The notes under the pieces were generated by a model, which worked only from the letters and a program-made list of their open reading frames with translations, was not told where the DNA came from and made no database searches. From assembly GCA_017504625.1 (NCBI GenBank), contig JAFVQU010000012.1:24518-88517 (forward strand): a DNA stretch of 64,000 nt. The letters run 5' to 3'. This DNA is from Clostridia bacterium. Lineage in GTDB: Bacteria; Bacillota; Clostridia; Oscillospirales; CAG-272. How positions within the stretch are numbered: position 1 is the first letter of the stretch; the number at the start of each line of letters is the position of its first letter. The position numbers were made by a program, and so were the translations under genes. Positions 18,242 to 27,109 of this stretch are shown in pieces.

Positions 18242-18268
18242 AGGAGATACGTCCGTATCTCCTTTTTT
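18240..18268. terminator. bidirectional terminator
   Basis: AAAGGAGATAC-GTCC-GTATCTCCTTT followed by T-rich sequence. It separates the converging SLOG and FliB-like genes. Confidence 0.85.
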
Positions 18269-19184
18269 ATCTGAATGCAAATTCAAGCTTTATTTCTTCC
18301 GCGTTTTCCTCGGAATATTCAAGCTCCTCGGAAATTATCCTCGCGGGTAGGATAATATCGTCAACCGTCCTCGCGCCGTTCTTTGCGCAGAGTGAGGCAA
18401 GCAGACGCTCAAGCACAAGGCAAAGACCAAGCGATGACATAAAATCGTCAATATCCTCCGCCTCGGTACAGTGTCGGTATATGAAATATGCAAGCGCACG
18501 CTCAAGATAAACCTCGATTTTGCCATCTGTTGCGGGCGATAGTGAAAACGCTTCAAAATCATTTTTGTGGCTCTTGTCAAGATATTCAAGAGAGGCAAAA
18601 AGCTCACGCCAGCCGCGCTCGTCAAGAATATCGGGCGACACGCCGTATTCGCGCGAGAGCGCTTTCAATCTTTCAAGATACGGCAGGCTTTTATCGGAAA
18701 GAATTAAAAAAACCTTTTCCCTTTCGGCAAGCGCATCAAAACCGCGCTCCGAGCGGCATACGTCGCCGTCAAGCTCACCTATCTCGATAATATCAGAGTA
18801 GTTTTCCGAGGTCAACACCAATCTGCAAGCCTCCTCGCAGGCAATTCCAAGCCCTACCTCTTTGCCGCGCGAGGTGTCGTTATAAAAGCGCGGATGTTCA
18901 CGGCAAATATCACAGATATAGTCCTCGCCAAGACCTAAAATTATTTTACAAAGACCGTTCCCTGTGAGGTGCGGACATCTGTCACCGTCGCAAAGTCTGA
19001 AATGCGGAACCTCGCCGTCCTCAATGCTCGCTCTTATCGCGCCGCCAAGCTCGCCTTCAAGTGACTTATACTTTTCAAGGGTATTCTCGTCAACGTCGAT
19101 CTCCCAGCCGACACAGCAGCTGTGCTTGCATCTGTCGGCAACACACTTGAAGTCCTTATAATATTCGGGTGCGTAAAGCTTCAT
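18267..19184 (-). CDS. FliB-like lysine-N-methylase family protein
   Basis: A 305-residue protein with the cysteine-rich start of the FliB family: CVADRCKHSCCVGWEID near residue 15, then GDRCPHLTGNGLCKI and CDICREHPRFY by residue 100. This pattern resembles YkgJ-type metal (Fe-S or zinc) clusters. The family is named for Salmonella FliB, which methylates flagellin lysines, but no flagellar gene is in the window and many clostridial members occur in non-flagellated species, so the substrate is open. The start is ATG 19184 with GGAGAG upstream; a TTG at 19199 is less likely. The ribosome site overlaps the birA stop, so the two genes are coupled. Confidence 0.8.
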   Translation of the reverse strand: MKLYAPEYYKDFKCVADRCKHSCCVGWEIDVDENTLEKYKSLEGELGGAIRASIEDGEVPHFRLCDGDRCPHLTGNGLCKIILGLGEDYICDICREHPRFYNDTSRGKEVGLGIACEEACRLVLTSENYSDIIEIGELDGDVCRSERGFDALAEREKVFLILSDKSLPYLERLKALSREYGVSPDILDERGWRELFASLEYLDKSHKNDFEAFSLSPATDGKIEVYLERALAYFIYRHCTEAEDIDDFMSSLGLCLVLERLLASLCAKNGARTVDDIILPARIISEELEYSEENAEEIKLEFAFR

Positions 19185-19188
19185 TTCA

Positions 19189-19965
19189 TCACTCTCCAAT
19201 TATCCGCACGCTGACAGAACCGCTTACTATCACCTCTCTGCTGCAGTCGGTGTCGATAATCAGTCCTCCGTCGTCACTAACGCCGAAAACCCTGCCAAAT
19301 CTCTCGCCGCCGTCAGCCATAGACAAAACAACGTCCTTGCCTTCAAGCATAAATCTTGCTCTGTATTCGTCCATATAGCTCTTGTCATCGGGATTTTTCG
19401 CGTGCGCAAGCAACTTTTTTACTATCAGAGAAATCAGAGTGGCATCCTTTGCCTCAAGCTCACCTATCGACGACGCTATCTCTTTTATTTCATCAGGGAA
19501 ATCACCGTCACCGATATTAATTCCAACTCCAACCGCAACGGCGTATCCAACGCTCGTTTGCCATCCCTCGACCAAGATGCCCGACACCTTGCCTGATTCG
19601 TCAAAGATATCGTTTACCCACTTTATTCGCATTTTTTTGCCGCATATTTTCTCAATAGAGGTGGCAACCGCAACCGCGGCGTGAGTCGTGACACAGACCG
19701 CATTGCCGATCCCGTCGGCAAAATAAAGCAATGTCATATATATCCCTTTGTCACGGCGGCTTACAAAGCTTCTGCCCACTCTGCCCCTGCCCGCGCTCTG
19801 CTCGTTCGCAACGAATAGCACGGGGGCACTATTCTCTGCCTTTGCGGCATATCTTTTTGCCTCATTATTGGTCGAATCAATAACGTCGTATATCTTTATT
19901 TCAAGCGCACCGTCCGAGATCTGCTCTTTGATGCTTTTTTCAAGCTTTATGTAAGATAAGCTCAC
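19189..19965 (-). CDS. birA: biotin--[acetyl-CoA-carboxylase] ligase
   Basis: A 258-residue class I biotin protein ligase that activates biotin as biotinyl-AMP and attaches it to carboxyl-carrier domains. Visible motifs are the N-terminal VIDSTNNEAKRYA, the adenylate-binding GRGRVGRSFVS, and KWVNDIF in the core, followed by a small C-terminal beta domain. There is no N-terminal helix-turn-helix, so it cannot act as a biotin repressor. The start is GTG 19965, supported by GGAGG 7 bases upstream. It has a consensus promoter at 19999-20027 and leads into the FliB-like gene. Confidence 0.9.
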   Translation of the reverse strand: MSLSYIKLEKSIKEQISDGALEIKIYDVIDSTNNEAKRYAAKAENSAPVLFVANEQSAGRGRVGRSFVSRRDKGIYMTLLYFADGIGNAVCVTTHAAVAVATSIEKICGKKMRIKWVNDIFDESGKVSGILVEGWQTSVGYAVAVGVGINIGDGDFPDEIKEIASSIGELEAKDATLISLIVKKLLAHAKNPDDKSYMDEYRARFMLEGKDVVLSMADGGERFGRVFGVSDDGGLIIDTDCSREVIVSGSVSVRIIGE

Positions 19966-21448: not shown

Positions 21449-21476
21449 AAAAAAAGCGGCTGTGCCGCTTTTTTTA
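21449..21476. terminator. bidirectional terminator
   Basis: AAAAAGCGGC-TGT-GCCGCTTTTT with flanking A and T tracts, between the converging PPIase and queT genes. Confidence 0.88.
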
Positions 21477-22013
21477 TTTGAATATTTTACGCAAGGCATT
21501 CTCTGTTCCAAGCAAAAGGATCGCGCCGAGTATTCCCGACGAGATTATCTCGCCTATACCGACCATGAGAAAATAGAATGGCAAAATCGCCGCAGTCTGC
21601 TCGCTTGGTACGGTGTAGCAAACATACACCACAAAGGAAACTATCACTGTGTTTGCGATTATGTTTGGAAGTGTGCAGAATATTTTTGCCGCCTTACCCT
21701 TGCTCAATCTGCCGATCAGATATGCTCCGAGCGCGCCTATAAAGGTCGCGACGGGGCCAAGCAGAATGTCAAGCGGCGCACAGCCTGTCAGAAGGTTTGC
21801 AAGCAAGCAGCCAAGAGTGACTCCCGGTATCGCCGCAGGCGTTATAAACGCGAGGGATACGAGTGTTTCGGAAAAGCGTATCTGTATCGCGCCCTTGTCA
21901 AGTCCGAGCGCCATTGCAAGATATGTAAGCCGAACGTAAAGGACGGCGATTATCGCCGCGCAGCACAGCCATAAAATACGCTTGTGTGTGTTGTTGGTTT
22001 TCAAGCTTTTCAT
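21474..22013 (-). CDS. queT: ECF transporter S component, QueT family
   Basis: A 179-residue membrane protein with about six hydrophobic segments. The pieces IQIRFSETL and AAIPGVTLGCLLANLLTG, followed by PLDILLGPVATFIGA, match the QueT (DUF988) S components that bind queuosine precursors for uptake by an energy-coupling-factor transporter. The preQ1-I riboswitch directly upstream (22067-22110) supports this independently. No EcfA, EcfA' or EcfT gene is in the window, so it must share a module encoded elsewhere. The ATG at 22013 lacks a clear ribosome site; an in-frame TAG lies 9 bases before it, so the start cannot be further upstream. It follows folC by about 107 bp. Confidence 0.88.
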   Translation of the reverse strand: MKSLKTNNTHKRILWLCCAAIIAVLYVRLTYLAMALGLDKGAIQIRFSETLVSLAFITPAAIPGVTLGCLLANLLTGCAPLDILLGPVATFIGALGAYLIGRLSKGKAAKIFCTLPNIIANTVIVSFVVYVCYTVPSEQTAAILPFYFLMVGIGEIISSGILGAILLLGTENALRKIFK

Positions 22014-22066
22014 TTGTTTTTTCTACGGAATTTTATTCCGCGCTACCTGCGCGACGGCAGACAGCT

Positions 22067-22110
22067 CTCCTTAGTTTTATTTATAGTGAGGATGGTTTCG
22101 AACTCACTTT
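22067..22110 (-). promoter_or_regulatory. preQ1-I riboswitch
   Basis: On the minus strand, stem GTGAG/CTCAC (22107-22086) encloses the loop TTCGAAACCATC, followed by TATAAATAAAACTAAGGAG (22085-22067). The GTTC and ACCATC loop parts and the A-rich AAAACTAAGG tail match the class I preQ1 pseudoknot: the loop GTT can pair with AAC of the tail. It begins about 10 nt after the folC stop and precedes queT. The GGAG that the fold would hide is more than 50 nt from the queT ATG, so the control mechanism is not obvious. Confidence 0.85.
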
Positions 22111-22120
22111 ATTTATATAT

Positions 22121-23953
22121 TTATAGGTTTTTTAGTGCCTCGACGACCTCGCCGTACATGTAAAGCGAGCCAAGCGCAACGACGGGAAGATTTGTGTTCT
22201 CTGCCTCAGCCTTTGCCAATGCCATCGCGTCAGACACGCTCTCACAAGCGACGGCGTCAATCCCGAGCGAGATAAACTCGTCTGCATACTCCTTTGCAGG
22301 AAGCGCACGGGGATTGTCAGGCGCAAGGCAGAATACCTTTTGCGCGACCGTGGCGATTCGTGATGCCATATATCCGTGATCCTTGTCCGCCATAACTCCC
22401 GTTACAATAAGCACCTTGCCGTCTGAAAAATATTTTTCTATGCTCTCAACCGCCGCATCGATCCCCTCGGGATTATGTCCTCCGTCGGCAATAATAAGCG
22501 GCTCCTTCGATATTACCTCAAATCTTGCATGCCAGACGACCTTTTCAAGTCCCTCGCGTATTGCCCCCTCGCATACAGGAAATCCAAGCTCTCCGATCAA
22601 CGAAAGCGCGGTCAGCGAATTTCTCGCATTTATCGGCTGATAAGAGCCGAGAAGCGCAAGGCGCAGATTTTTATAACTCATATAGTCAAAATCCGTGCCT
22701 TCAAGCGAAATAGCATTTATTTTAAGGCTATCACGGTCTACCGTATGCATCGGCGCGCCCTTGTCGGCGGCAACGGCTCTTACAACACTCTCCGCCCTCT
22801 CGTCGTTTCCGCACCAGAGAACAGGAGCTCCCGCCTTGATTATCCCCGCCTTTTCCGCGGCGATCTCCTCAATCGTGTTTCCAAGTATTGATGTATGGTC
22901 GAGAGCTATGCCCGTGATGACCGACAAGATCGGAGTTTTTATTATATTGGTCGCGTCAAGTCTGCCGCCAAGACCGCATTCAAGCACTACTATATCGCAG
23001 TTATTTTTTGCAAAATAAAGGAAAGCAAGCGCGGTAATAAGCTCAAACTCGGTAGGCTTGTCCTTCATTTTATCGGCGATCGGCTTTATCACCTCGACAA
23101 GCTCGCAAAGCTCTGCCTTTGAAATGTTCTCGCCGTTAATTCTCATTCTCTCGCCAAATTCAAGGATATACGGCGAGGTGAAAAGTCCAACCTTATATCC
23201 CTGCGCTCTCAGGATCGCCTCAGTCATAGCGCAGAACGAGCCCTTGCCGTTAGTTCCCGCAACGTGAACGAATTTCAGCGAATCCTGCGGATTTCCAAGC
23301 TTTTCGCAAAGCTCTCTCACTCTCTCAAGACCGGGGTTACAGAACTGCCAGTTTGTCGAGTGGATGTATTCTATCGCTTCGTCGTATCTCATACGTCCTA
23401 CAAAAAGGTTGCCGTCCATAACCCGTCTTACAGATGCGTTCCTGTACATAATGCAGATAAGCGTTATCTCAAGCGGCGCGATAACCAAATAAAGAGGTAT
23501 TCTCCAAAGGACGAGAGCACCGTAATATGAATAAAGTCCTATCGGCTTGATTATCATCGAGCAGATGATATGAGCTATTGCCGCCGATACGATTATTCTC
23601 GCGCGCCCTCTTTTTTTGAAAACGTAGTGCGAAAGTGTACCCGAGATAACACCCATCATCGTCGCGCCCACCGTAACGATCAGGTTTATCGGGTATGCCT
23701 GCGGCGTCATAAGATAGCTGACTATATCACTTGCCGCGCCGACCACACCGCCGACGGCAGGGCCAAACATAATGCCTGCTAACAGTATCGGCAGATTTTC
23801 AAAGGTCACTCTGAAAAGTCCTACCCCAAAATTGAGAAAGCTTTTGCAAAAGATACCTATAACAACGCTCATAGCCGTGAGCATCGCCGCGATCGTCATT
23901 ACCGCAAGACTTCCAAAAAGCCCAATGCGGCTTCTTTTTCTGCTTTTTTGCAT
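22121..23953 (-). CDS. folC: fused folate ECF S component and folylpolyglutamate synthase (FolT-FolC)
   Basis: A 610-residue fusion. Residues about 1-170 are a six-helix ECF S component of the FolT type. From about residue 188 (MRYDEAIEYIH) to the end it is a full FolC (dihydrofolate/folylpolyglutamate synthase), with the P-loop HVAGTNGKGS near 229, then TSPYILEFGERM and DHTSILGNTIEEIAAEKAGI. FolT captures folate; FolC adds glutamates, which traps folate in the cell. Joining them couples entry to retention. The start is ATG 23953, with AAAGGAG 8 bases upstream; the ORF remains open to 24139, but that part is the riboswitch leader. It is controlled by the tetrahydrofolate riboswitch at 24025-24182. 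No ECF energising genes are near. Confidence 0.9.
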   Translation of the reverse strand: MQKSRKRSRIGLFGSLAVMTIAAMLTAMSVVIGIFCKSFLNFGVGLFRVTFENLPILLAGIMFGPAVGGVVGAASDIVSYLMTPQAYPINLIVTVGATMMGVISGTLSHYVFKKRGRARIIVSAAIAHIICSMIIKPIGLYSYYGALVLWRIPLYLVIAPLEITLICIMYRNASVRRVMDGNLFVGRMRYDEAIEYIHSTNWQFCNPGLERVRELCEKLGNPQDSLKFVHVAGTNGKGSFCAMTEAILRAQGYKVGLFTSPYILEFGERMRINGENISKAELCELVEVIKPIADKMKDKPTEFELITALAFLYFAKNNCDIVVLECGLGGRLDATNIIKTPILSVITGIALDHTSILGNTIEEIAAEKAGIIKAGAPVLWCGNDERAESVVRAVAADKGAPMHTVDRDSLKINAISLEGTDFDYMSYKNLRLALLGSYQPINARNSLTALSLIGELGFPVCEGAIREGLEKVVWHARFEVISKEPLIIADGGHNPEGIDAAVESIEKYFSDGKVLIVTGVMADKDHGYMASRIATVAQKVFCLAPDNPRALPAKEYADEFISLGIDAVACESVSDAMALAKAEAENTNLPVVALGSLYMYGEVVEALKNL

Positions 23954-24024
23954 AAAAAAACTCCTTTCCTCACAGCATAGGGCGGGAAAGAAGAAACAAG
24001 CAAAGCATATTTCTTGCGCCGTAT

Positions 24025-24182
24025 GAAGCGGGATGCAAGACCTTGACCGCAGTTGTTTGTTCGCAAGGCAGAATTTTGAAAAATTTTTGCCGTTTTCAAA
24101 CCGCCCGCGGTTTGAAAACAACCTTCGTCCGACAAGCAACTCCCCGTCCCGTCGGCACTTTACGCCAAAGTCTTTACTCTTC
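24025..24182 (-). promoter_or_regulatory. tetrahydrofolate (THF-I, folT) riboswitch
   Basis: On the minus strand the leader contains the conserved THF elements in order: GGCGTAAAGTGCC, GGGACGGGGAG, GGACGAAGG, then GGTCAAGGTC and TTGCATCCCGCTTC. Outer stem GAAG/CTTC closes it, GACTTTG pairs with CAAGGTC, and CCGAC pairs with GTCGG. Between GACGAAGG and the 3' part lies an unusually long arm (GTTGT/ACAAC base with an inner hairpin TTTTCAAACCGC/GCGGTTTGAAAA). Its position before a FolT domain agrees with the ligand. The ribosome site of folT-folC is about 60 nt downstream. Confidence 0.87.
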
Positions 24183-24202
24183 TTTTTAAAATTTATACAT
24201 CA

Positions 24203-24230
24203 ATTATATCACTTTTTTATTCTTTGTCAA
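24203..24230 (-). promoter_or_regulatory. sigma-A promoter of folT-folC
   Basis: TTGACA (24230-24225) and TATAAT (24208-24203), spacer 16 bp, on the minus strand. The transcript start should fall about 15 nt before the riboswitch. Confidence 0.8.
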
Positions 24231-24359: not shown

Positions 24360-25805
24360 ATGGTATTTTCAAGTCTTCTTTTCGTCTTTTTGTTTCTCGT
24401 GGCGTCTTACTCCATATATTTGCTGTGCGGCAAGACGATAAACGCGAAAAACGTTATACTTTTGGTATCATCGTTGATATTTTACGCATGGGGCGGCCCC
24501 GCGCTCGTGTCACTTCTCTGCCTTATGGCGTTTATCTGCTGGGCGGGTGCCATAATCATTGATAACGCCGAGCGAAAGAAGCTCCGTTTGGCTCTCTGCT
24601 GGGCTACCGTCGCCGTTTGCATAGCTATTCTCATTATTTTCAAGTACACGGTATTCGCGATTACAAACGTATACGCGCTTTTCAATATTGATTCACCAAT
24701 TCCCTCTATCGCTCTCCCAATAGGTATATCGTTTTACACCTTCCAGCTCATCTCCTACGTTATCGACGTATATCGCAGCGAAGTCAAGGCGCAGAGAAAA
24801 TACTGGCATCTTTTGCTCTACGCATCGCTTTTCCATCAGTGCATAGCAGGCCCCATCGTGCGCTATGCCGACGTTGAAAACGACATTGAAAACAGAGTGA
24901 TGAAGCGCGAGGAGATAAGCCGCGGTATTACTCGGTTTGCCTTCGGTCTTGCGAAAAAAGCCGTTCTTGCAAACGGATGCGGCGCAATAGTCGACGCATT
25001 CTTCACTAATTCCGATACGGGTGCTTTGATGACGGCAGGTGAAATATCGGCGCTTCCCGCGCTTGCGGTCGTAATAGGTGTATTCACCTATATGCTTCAG
25101 CTCTATCTCGATTTCTCGGCATATTCCGATATGGCTATTGGTATGGGCCTTATGATAGGCTTCCACTACAAAGAAAACTTCAACTACCCCTACGTTGCCA
25201 CCTCGGTCACTGATTTCTGGAGAAGATGGCACATCTCGCTCTCAACATTCTTCCGCGATTACGTATACATTCCCCTCGGAGGAAATAGAGTGACCGTTCC
25301 GCGTCATATCATAAATATGTTCGTCGTTTGGGCGCTTACTGGATTCTGGCACGGAGCAAGCTGGAATTATCTTTTCTGGGGACTTTATTGGTTTGTCTTT
25401 CTCGTGCTTGAAAAGTATCTTATCAAGCCGAAGAAGAACCCCCGAGGCCTTATTCGTATAGGCCGCACCGCGCTCACTCTCGTGATCGTATTTTTCGCCT
25501 CAATGCTCTTTAAATTCGAGGATCTCTCCTCTCTCGGACAAGCATTCCTCAATCTGTTCGGCAGAAACGGATTTACCGACGCGGCAACCAATCTTGTGCT
25601 TAAGAACAATATGTTCTTTATAATATTCGCTTCGATAGTATCTACTCCCATCGTGCCTGCGGTTGCAGCTCTTGCAAGCAAAACTCGCGCAACGGCGGCA
25701 GTTTCAAAGGTCGTCGGCGCGCTTATCCCCGCCGCGCTTGTAGTCGTATCGGCTATCTGCCTTGCGGGTAACAGCTACAACCCCTTCCTCTACTTCCAAT
25801 TCTGA
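24360..25805 (+). CDS. MBOAT family O-acyltransferase (AlgI/DltB-like)
   Basis: A 481-residue membrane-bound O-acyltransferase with about eleven hydrophobic segments. The family signature is present: NYPYVATSVTDFWRRWHISL, then the catalytic histidine region TGFWHGASWNYLFWG. AlgI-type proteins pass acetyl groups across the membrane for O-acetylation of an exported polysaccharide. GGAGG lies 9 bases before the ATG. The next gene starts 17 bp later and encodes a DHHW protein, the usual extracytoplasmic partner, so the pair probably acetylates a cell-surface polymer. No glycosyltransferase genes adjoin, so the polymer is unknown. Confidence 0.9.
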   Translation: MVFSSLLFVFLFLVASYSIYLLCGKTINAKNVILLVSSLIFYAWGGPALVSLLCLMAFICWAGAIIIDNAERKKLRLALCWATVAVCIAILIIFKYTVFAITNVYALFNIDSPIPSIALPIGISFYTFQLISYVIDVYRSEVKAQRKYWHLLLYASLFHQCIAGPIVRYADVENDIENRVMKREEISRGITRFAFGLAKKAVLANGCGAIVDAFFTNSDTGALMTAGEISALPALAVVIGVFTYMLQLYLDFSAYSDMAIGMGLMIGFHYKENFNYPYVATSVTDFWRRWHISLSTFFRDYVYIPLGGNRVTVPRHIINMFVVWALTGFWHGASWNYLFWGLYWFVFLVLEKYLIKPKKNPRGLIRIGRTALTLVIVFFASMLFKFEDLSSLGQAFLNLFGRNGFTDAATNLVLKNNMFFIIFASIVSTPIVPAVAALASKTRATAAVSKVVGALIPAALVVVSAICLAGNSYNPFLYFQF

Positions 25806-25822
25806 TGAAAGGAGAATTATTT

Positions 25823-27109
25823 ATGAACGAGCAAAGCAAATTTTCAAGAATAATCGACGGCGTAAAAATTCTCCTTTTCGTTACGGTGATGATTGCGGGA
25901 TTTATTATCGGCCTTGCGTTTTTCGCCCGACCCGACAAGTCTGAAAATGAAAAGCGAGAGCTTACAAAATTCCCGGAATTCACGCTTTCAAGCTTTCTCT
26001 CGGGTGATTTTACAAGTCAGGTCAGCCTTTGGTATTCCGACACCTATCCCTTGCGCGAGCCGATGATTCTCGCGAGCAACGCTCTTGAACAGAATCTTTA
26101 CGGCATCCGTGACGAGCAGTATATCGGCGGCGGAGAGGGCGACGATATTCCCGACGAGCCTATTAACTCCGACAAGGAGGTAATCTTCAACCCCACCGAC
26201 GACGGTAAGGGTGAGCGCTTTGAGGGCTTGTACCTAAACGGCAGCACCGCATATCAGCTCTACTTCTTCAACAAGCAGAATTCTGACTCCTACGCCGCTC
26301 TTATAAATCAGTTCGCATCACAGGTCAAGGGAAAAGCAACTGTTTACGACATGATCGTGCCCTTGCACTATCAGATCGCGCTCCCCGAGGAAACACGCGA
26401 CAAGTACGGCGCATCGGATTGCGAAGATGCTATCGACTATATGTACTCGCTTCTATCCAATGAGATCGTAACGGTCGACACGCTTCCGAATCTTATTTCT
26501 CACAACGACGAATACCTTTATTTCCGTACCGACCACCATTGGACTGCGCGAGGCGCATATTACGCCTACGAGGCGTTTTGTAACCGCAAGGGTATTTCCC
26601 CCACACCGCTTGAAAACTACCAGAGAGTAGAATTTGACGGCTTCCTCGGCACATTCTACGAGCAAGCGAAGTCGCCCGTGGCTATGAAAGACAATCCCGA
26701 CTACGTTGAAGCCTTCGTACCGATCGGCGTCAACGAGGAAACGGTATACGATTCCGAAGGAAACGTGATCGGCGAATACGCGGTAGTCTACAAGGGCGCA
26801 GGAAAATACACCGCGGGAAACAAATATCTCTGCTTCATTGCGGGCGACCAGCCGCTCACAAAGATCGAAAACCCCAACATTAACAACGGTTCGTCGATAG
26901 TGGTAGTCAAGGAATCCTACGGAAACGCATTCGTTCCCTTCCTCGTTGACTCTTATCAGACCGTATACGTTATAGATTACAGAAAGTGGGACGGCAAGCT
27001 TGCTGATTTCGTGCTTGAAAACTCGGTTGACGACGTTCTTTTCCTCAACGTAGTAAACACCACCTCAACCGGCGCGCGCCTGCTTGAGCTTCAGTCTATA
27101 ATTGAATAA
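25823..27109 (+). CDS. DHHW family protein (AlgJ/AlgX-like)
   Basis: A 428-residue protein with one N-terminal transmembrane segment (about 15-37) and an extracytoplasmic SGNH-hydrolase-like domain. The name motif is visible as RTDHHWTARGAYYAYEAF near residue 238, and KESYGNAFVPFL near 370 supplies the catalytic-serine-like block. It is the expected partner of the MBOAT protein in O-acetylation of exported polysaccharide. ATG 25823 has AAAGGAG upstream and is preferred over 25805, which overlaps the MBOAT stop. The acceptor polymer is not identifiable from this window. Confidence 0.88.
   Translation: MNEQSKFSRIIDGVKILLFVTVMIAGFIIGLAFFARPDKSENEKRELTKFPEFTLSSFLSGDFTSQVSLWYSDTYPLREPMILASNALEQNLYGIRDEQYIGGGEGDDIPDEPINSDKEVIFNPTDDGKGERFEGLYLNGSTAYQLYFFNKQNSDSYAALINQFASQVKGKATVYDMIVPLHYQIALPEETRDKYGASDCEDAIDYMYSLLSNEIVTVDTLPNLISHNDEYLYFRTDHHWTARGAYYAYEAFCNRKGISPTPLENYQRVEFDGFLGTFYEQAKSPVAMKDNPDYVEAFVPIGVNEETVYDSEGNVIGEYAVVYKGAGKYTAGNKYLCFIAGDQPLTKIENPNINNGSSIVVVKESYGNAFVPFLVDSYQTVYVIDYRKWDGKLADFVLENSVDDVLFLNVVNTTSTGARLLELQSIIE

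Follow-up and report, generated by a model that had tools for sequence, protein, structure and literature searches.

A FolT-family S component fused to folylpolyglutamate synthase under a THF riboswitch in a Clostridia bacterium and its relatives

In the DNA studied here, a membrane subunit of the kind that binds folate for ECF transporters and folylpolyglutamate synthase (FolC) seem to be written as one gene. The questions this raises are whether the join is real, how often it has arisen, and whether it would serve the uptake and retention of folate or is a neutral outcome of two genes lying close together.

The fused frame and its control region

We identified a stop-free frame of 610 codons on the minus strand of the window (the whole stretch of 64,000 nucleotides analysed), running from an ATG at 23953 to a stop ending at 22121. 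The same frame is open farther upstream and would give 672 aa if counted from a TTG at 24139; the ATG at 23953 is preceded by the ribosome site AGGAAAGGAG. In transcription order, the features are as follows.

24203..24230 (-): promoter of the sigma-70 type by consensus match (12/12), TTGACA-16-TATAAT, a TG standing ahead of the second hexamer
24027..24183 (-): aptamer of a class I THF riboswitch (RF01831), scoring 62.7 bits in the whole-genome scan
24089..24122 (-): palindromic 34-nt hairpin within the THF aptamer, treated as an insert in the longer RF01831 span
23954..23993 (-): likely expression platform, in which a hairpin (23993..23961) pairs the Shine-Dalgarno sequence, with U7 between it and the ATG
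23396..23953 (-): N-terminal half, an ECF S component of the FolT family (residues 1-186), with most of the linker
22121..23392 (-): C-terminal half, folylpolyglutamate synthase (FolC; residues 188-610), and the stop codon, 23392 being the A of a retained internal ATG

Both halves are recognised by family models. The FolT-family model TIGR04518 matches residues 18-172 (E 2e-26, 92.7 bits, cut-off 60) over positions 6-160 of its 163, which is nearly its full length, and the FolC model TIGR01499 matches residues 209-606 (E 1e-115, 387.3 bits, cut-off 162.65). Pfam agrees, placing ECF_trnsprt, Mur_ligase_M and Mur_ligase_C on the 610-aa protein. A linker of about 15 residues (about residues 173-187) lies between the halves. 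Residues 188-606 can be aligned to the solved FolC/FPGS chains 1o5z (T. maritima-type) and 1fgs (L. casei), and GTNGKGS (the P-loop), ECGLGGRLDATN, DHTSILGNTIEEIAAEKAGI and DGGHNPEG, signatures with catalytic roles in FolC, are all intact in the alignment. The window enzyme differs from these chains in being tethered to a membrane S component, so that its N-terminus is not free.

The frame, the two models and the signatures confirm that the window gene truly joins an S component of the FolT family, in frame, to an intact FolC, in agreement with the first-pass annotation. That annotation had also described the FolT half as six-helical; the family match supports this, while a hydropathy scan alone shows, up to residue 170, five to six peaks with heights of 1.25 to 2.32. 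In the FolC half, the scan gives four weak, isolated peaks of 1.23 to 1.37.

A promoter, a THF riboswitch and a ribosome site had likewise been said to fit a start at 23953, and a match to each was found. Promoter-like sites number 2 in the stretch, against 0.9 expected from shuffles. Over a shorter span, 24183..24067, RF01831 scores 47.5 bits; both spans exceed the gathering threshold of 36, and the aptamer probably ends near 24027 rather than 24067, because the longer span scores 62.7 bits. The palindromic insert was rejected as a genome repeat, its 26-nt core occurring at one genome site only (with up to 3 mismatches allowed). The expression platform would be terminator-like or hide the ribosome site, and the 101 nt from 24040 to 23940, whose predicted fold contains the platform hairpin, fold as well or better in only 1 of 200 shuffles (z -3.07).

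We additionally noted features of the neighbouring genes. Downstream of the folTC stop lies a QueT gene (21474-22013, minus strand; PF06177, E 4.1e-32), with a PreQ1 riboswitch match between the two (22065-22113, minus strand) that reaches 29.9 bits against a gathering threshold of 39 (E 1.4e-4 over 201 bases). folTC and QueT are accordingly two successive S-component genes, each behind its own riboswitch, the PreQ1 match being sub-threshold. Divergently from folTC, positions 24360-27109 (+) encode an MBOAT acyltransferase and then a DHHW/AlgX-like protein, likely a polymer O-acetylation pair. Farther off, a frame at 18267-19199 (-) matches a FliB-like lysine methylase (NF038110, 172.9 bits) and overlaps the end of a BirA-like ligase gene (19189-19965).

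Recurrence in relatives and the state of the junction

The first-pass annotation had treated the fusion as singular, which is not borne out: mapping the two-domain architecture over the family, we found about eight fused groups. A fused frame is present in 8 of 146 sampled family genomes and in 3 of 12 genomes of the window's genus, the window being counted in both. The other fused genomes are G146 and G151 in the genus and G027, G089, G074, G020, G127, G072 and G132 in the family; a scan of named-record contigs added L022, from an uncultured Clostridium sp., the only fusion met outside the family. Relatives in named records are metagenome-assembled genomes that bear the label Oscillospiraceae or Clostridia bacterium, and gut samples of goat, sheep or deer yielded several of them.

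The query matched at least 131 of the 146 family genomes, loci being classed only for the stronger FolC matches (to about E 6e-47) and by the stop-to-stop frames of each locus. The open-frame length reported by the search was rejected as proof of fusion, since in several genomes (G117, G133, G102 and G130, for example) it disagrees with the stop-to-stop frames. Among 130 loci with FolC above 350 bits, 11 are fused and 119 are not, 13 of the latter having no FolT in the stretch.

In a tree of FolC built from 123 distinct rows, 7 identical ones having been removed (a quick search, with SH-aLRT support only), the 11 fused rows require at least 9 state changes by parsimony, a count that is blind to gain versus loss. 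Two fused species pairs form clades (rows L134/L135 and L093/L097; genomes G146/G151 and G020/G127), and the window is the only fused row of its 10-row group (support 98). The fused rows L030 and L031 share a genus code, yet a separate row, L012, lies between them, and one change there may be a re-separation. In L021, which is sister to the fused L022, the FolT half is spread over two frames, one part lying in the FolC frame; this is perhaps a fused gene with a frameshift, and it was counted as separate.

The usual arrangement in the family is folT and folC as separate, nearly overlapping genes behind the same riboswitch: the genes, their order and the riboswitch are those of the window, with two proteins made in place of one. 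Most of these pairs lie within 20 bases, a 4-base overlap being commonest, and in the closest relatives of the window the genes overlap by 4 bases or stand a few bases apart (113 in one). The THF riboswitch is present in 128 of 146 family genomes and directly upstream of all 11 fused genes. Its control is an inheritance from the folT-folC operon and no trait of the fusion itself; folC and folT are named, with folE, among THF-I targets in Firmicutes in PMC9881143.

The linkers of the fused genes differ in length and sequence. In the three fused pairs compared, pN is below pS in both halves, with pS near saturation. Separately, we noted two loci (L141 in G147 and L034 in G031) whose FolC is 66-67% identical to that of the window and whose FolT is only 34-37% identical; here, folC may have been kept and the S component exchanged.

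The junction itself bears on two further explanations. Ahead of separate folC genes, the Shine-Dalgarno energy has a median of -8.4 kcal/mol (n=88, counting starts where folT and folC lie -50 to 60 apart), whereas at the junction of fused genes the median is -2.95 kcal/mol (n=10; window -3.3), close to the background of -2.9 kcal/mol at internal folC ATG codons (n=1058). The fused and separate values differ with a Mann-Whitney p of 1.8e-6, kinship being ignored. Ten of the 11 fused genes could be scored, L097 having no start codon near the junction. In five of the ten, a start codon stands at the usual FolC place (window -3.3, L030 -2.2, L031 -5.5, L134 -3.3, L135 0.1), and in the other five the nearest is 3 to 9 codons off.

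The window fusion might, under one of these explanations, be an assembly or base-calling error. Its exact junction is known from one genome only, its nine nearest neighbours within the tree group carry separate genes, and a +1 reading meets a TAG just ahead of the FolC ATG, next to a run of five T. However, the FolC ribosome site is lost in the window as it is in the other fusions (only 4 of the 88 separate folC genes have a site as weak or weaker), and ten other genes of the set are also fused. Single errors would not produce two fused species pairs that form clades. A frameshift artefact is thus unlikely and was largely rejected, because the ribosome site is gone and other species carry fused genes; we consider an error at the junction very improbable.

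Alternatively, a separate FolC could still be made, from the internal ATG at 23392 or by cleavage in the linker. The start codon retained at the usual FolC place in the window, L030, L031, L134 and L135 speaks for this, as does an AGGA 3 bases ahead of the ATG in the window. In contrast, the Shine-Dalgarno energy there is that of the background, and the remaining six fused genes lack a start codon at the usual FolC place. We regard a separate FolC product as unlikely.

Probable folate scavenging and the S-component pocket

We investigated the folate setting by profile searches of 20 draft genomes, 10 with fused and 10 with separate genes, that of the window being about 97% complete. FolK matched in none of the 20, and FolP passed its cut-off in none; five weak FolP matches sit in long frames and seem to be other pterin-binding proteins. 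EcfT was found in 19 of the 20, the exception being the fused genome G151, which is 68% complete. The window's genome has one EcfT match (E 1.2e-49), EcfT being the motor component by which the search was made; it also has five PF12822 S-component matches, four of them over the cut-off, plus QueT. One EcfT with several S components fits a shared ECF motor. By the models used, which covered folA-type DHFR and ThyX, neither was found in this genome. DHFR matches occur in 31 of 146 family genomes, including G020 and G127 (two of the eight fused family genomes).

With FolK, FolP and folA-type DHFR not found and EcfT present, the window's organism is probably a folate scavenger, and on the simplest reading of its gene content reduced folate would be the likeliest useful form.

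The window's genome also holds a second FolC-like gene (contig G000:C22, L133:1113-2426, plus strand), in which KSTAGHA replaces the P-loop GTNGKGS. As a remote FolC relative it was rejected, on sequence grounds, as a spare FPGS, the P-loop being lost and the score to TIGR01499 being 28.5 bits against the cut-off of 162.65, and is possibly a FolC-derived non-enzyme. Second FolC-like genes on L013 and L015 keep GSNGKT and have no catalytic lysine stretch, and weak matches to the FolC half, of 22-26%, occur in 10 of the 12 genus genomes.

We compared the FolT half with E. faecalis FolT (EfFolT, 4Z7F) in two alignments, one multiple (109 rows) and one pairwise. The likeness to EfFolT and the L. 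delbrueckii ECF-FolT2 lies in the family match and in the retained positions 36 (Lys/Arg), 64 (Asp) and 81 (Thr): EfFolT Lys36, Asp64 and Thr81 correspond in both alignments to window Arg48, Asp76 and Thr94, which are found in 89, 105 and 89 of the 109 rows, respectively. Other positions differ. Phe80 is Val93 in both alignments (Ile or Val in 83/109 rows), Thr121 is Lys136 (Lys in 80/109) and Asn117 is Ser132. The placement of Arg142 depends on the alignment, being Arg151 in the multiple alignment (Arg in 90/109 rows) and Leu154 in the pairwise one; Lys145 falls just outside the aligned fragment and extrapolates to Leu154, and Arg26 has no confident placement in the window protein. In EfFolT, replacement of Phe80 by Ala abolishes binding and K36R is mild (PMC4525288).

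Residues 93 (about 23675, minus strand) and 136 (about 23546, minus strand) are coupled across the 109 rows. Ile or Val mostly goes with Lys, and Phe or Trp never does: an aliphatic residue stands with Lys in 80 rows and without it in 8, and an aromatic one without it in 21 and with it in none. At least two types of FolT pocket therefore seem to exist in the family, that of the window lacking the stacking ring, and both types are present among the fused genes. The residue at the Phe80 position does not correlate with DHFR in the 87 rows from whole genomes (aromatic in 2/14 with DHFR and 16/73 without; p 0.72), which speaks against the simple form of the idea that a genome without DHFR has, for that reason, a pocket for reduced folate.

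Folate binding as in EfFolT is not assured, because Phe80 has become Val93, Thr121 Lys136 and Asn117 Ser132, and Lys145 is Leu154 by extrapolation. The S component might even carry another cargo, such as a different pterin or an unrelated vitamin, its join to FolC being incidental. The changed pocket, above all the Val in place of Phe80 (residue roles as given in PMC4525288), would fit this. Against it stand the TIGR04518 match, which exceeds its cut-off, the THF riboswitch in 128 of the 146 family genomes, the position of folT beside folC in most loci read, and the absence of FolK and of any FolP over the cut-off in the 20 genomes checked. We judge a non-folate cargo quite unlikely.

A proposed tethered polyglutamylase and a neutral rival

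The reading that we prefer, with somewhat better than even confidence, is that the fusion would act as an importer-tethered polyglutamylase at the cytoplasmic face, made 1:1 under THF feedback, that catches and retains folate. The N-terminal S component would catch external folate and pass it on through the shared ECF motor of the genome, docking, toppling and being expelled as in group II ECF transporters, for which PMC10368641 describes these steps. FolC would hang at the cytoplasmic side on a short, variable linker, so that released folate would meet the polyglutamylase at once and be retained by the added glutamates; polyglutamylation is generally regarded as favouring the retention of folate (PMC1971073). 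One promoter and one THF riboswitch would fix both activities at 1:1, and plentiful reduced folate would shut both down. Expression as one protein, folate as the ligand, ECF docking despite the attached enzyme, catalysis and any gain from proximity are inferred.

The first-pass annotation had placed FolC on the cytoplasmic face. E. faecalis FolT has both its termini in the cytoplasm (PMC4525288), and a cytoplasmic C-terminus is expected in the fusion too, so that FolC would sit on this face; the fusion differs in bearing a 420-residue enzyme at this end. Channelled uptake and locking of folate by the fusion, as the annotation had proposed, is plausible. The variation of the linkers in length and sequence speaks against a specific channel and suggests proximity and a fixed stoichiometry over a built channel. 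Any advantage of the fusion would not be universal, since fused and separate species share one genus (3 of 12 fused).

A stronger version of the tethered-enzyme reading, which we put forward only tentatively and think rather doubtful, is vectorial capture, in which the S component would hand folate to its own tethered polyglutamylase, uptake through a shared and promiscuous ECF motor would become effectively irreversible in folate scavengers, and the arrangement would have arisen about eight times independently through gene fusion. As part of this version, the altered pterin pocket would suit reduced folate, which would be needed if DHFR is really lacking.

The serious rival is a neutral step from operon to fusion, in which a small indel or the loss of a stop joined the near-overlapping folT and folC, leaving independent domains with no gain beyond shared expression. 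It is a strong one, given that folT and folC all but overlap and that a single genus holds both fused and separate relatives; we think it possible, at something short of an even prospect. Consistent with such a step, the separate genes mostly lie within 20 bases, with the 4-base overlap commonest; fusions are scattered over the tree, several of them on single rows, and occur beside separate relatives of the same genus; the linker sequence is not conserved; and both pocket types occur in fused genes. The other junction of folC argues in the opposite direction, as no folC C-terminal tail longer than 60 aa was found against 34 tight pairs of folC and the next gene, compared with 11 fused genes against 85 tight pairs of separate folT and folC. 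This control, on 116 loci with enough downstream sequence, is small, uses unlike criteria and ignores kinship, a tight folC-next-gene pair having a Shine-Dalgarno energy of -5 or better and an ORF of at least 100 aa. The two species pairs that share their fusion by descent on the tree also count against a purely neutral step.

The tethered-enzyme reading may be set beside other S-component-like proteins. The 5TMR receptors (PMC11109136) resemble the fusion in joining an S-component-like membrane fold to a cytoplasmic partner domain; the partners given in the available part of that paper are signalling domains and an NRAMP transporter, and that part names no vitamin-processing enzyme on a transporter S component. 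Among the matches listed in our literature search, judged by title and the start of the abstract, none reports a FolT-FolC fusion and no functional study of one was found; the founding ECF and THF riboswitch papers and the supplement of PMC3766115 were outside this search. The supplementary operon tables of that last paper mark fused genes by parentheses, and the FolT-FolC fusion may already be recorded somewhere.

The fusion joins two known families in a real two-domain protein that has evolved repeatedly. Should the tether matter, the fusion would be a natural case, evolved several times, in which a transporter's substrate-binding subunit is linked to the enzyme that traps the imported cargo, and would give a direct handle on whether uptake or polyglutamylation limits folate retention in scavengers. 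Even if the step was neutral, fused and separate sister species under one riboswitch form a series in which the evolution of an operon into a fusion may be followed.
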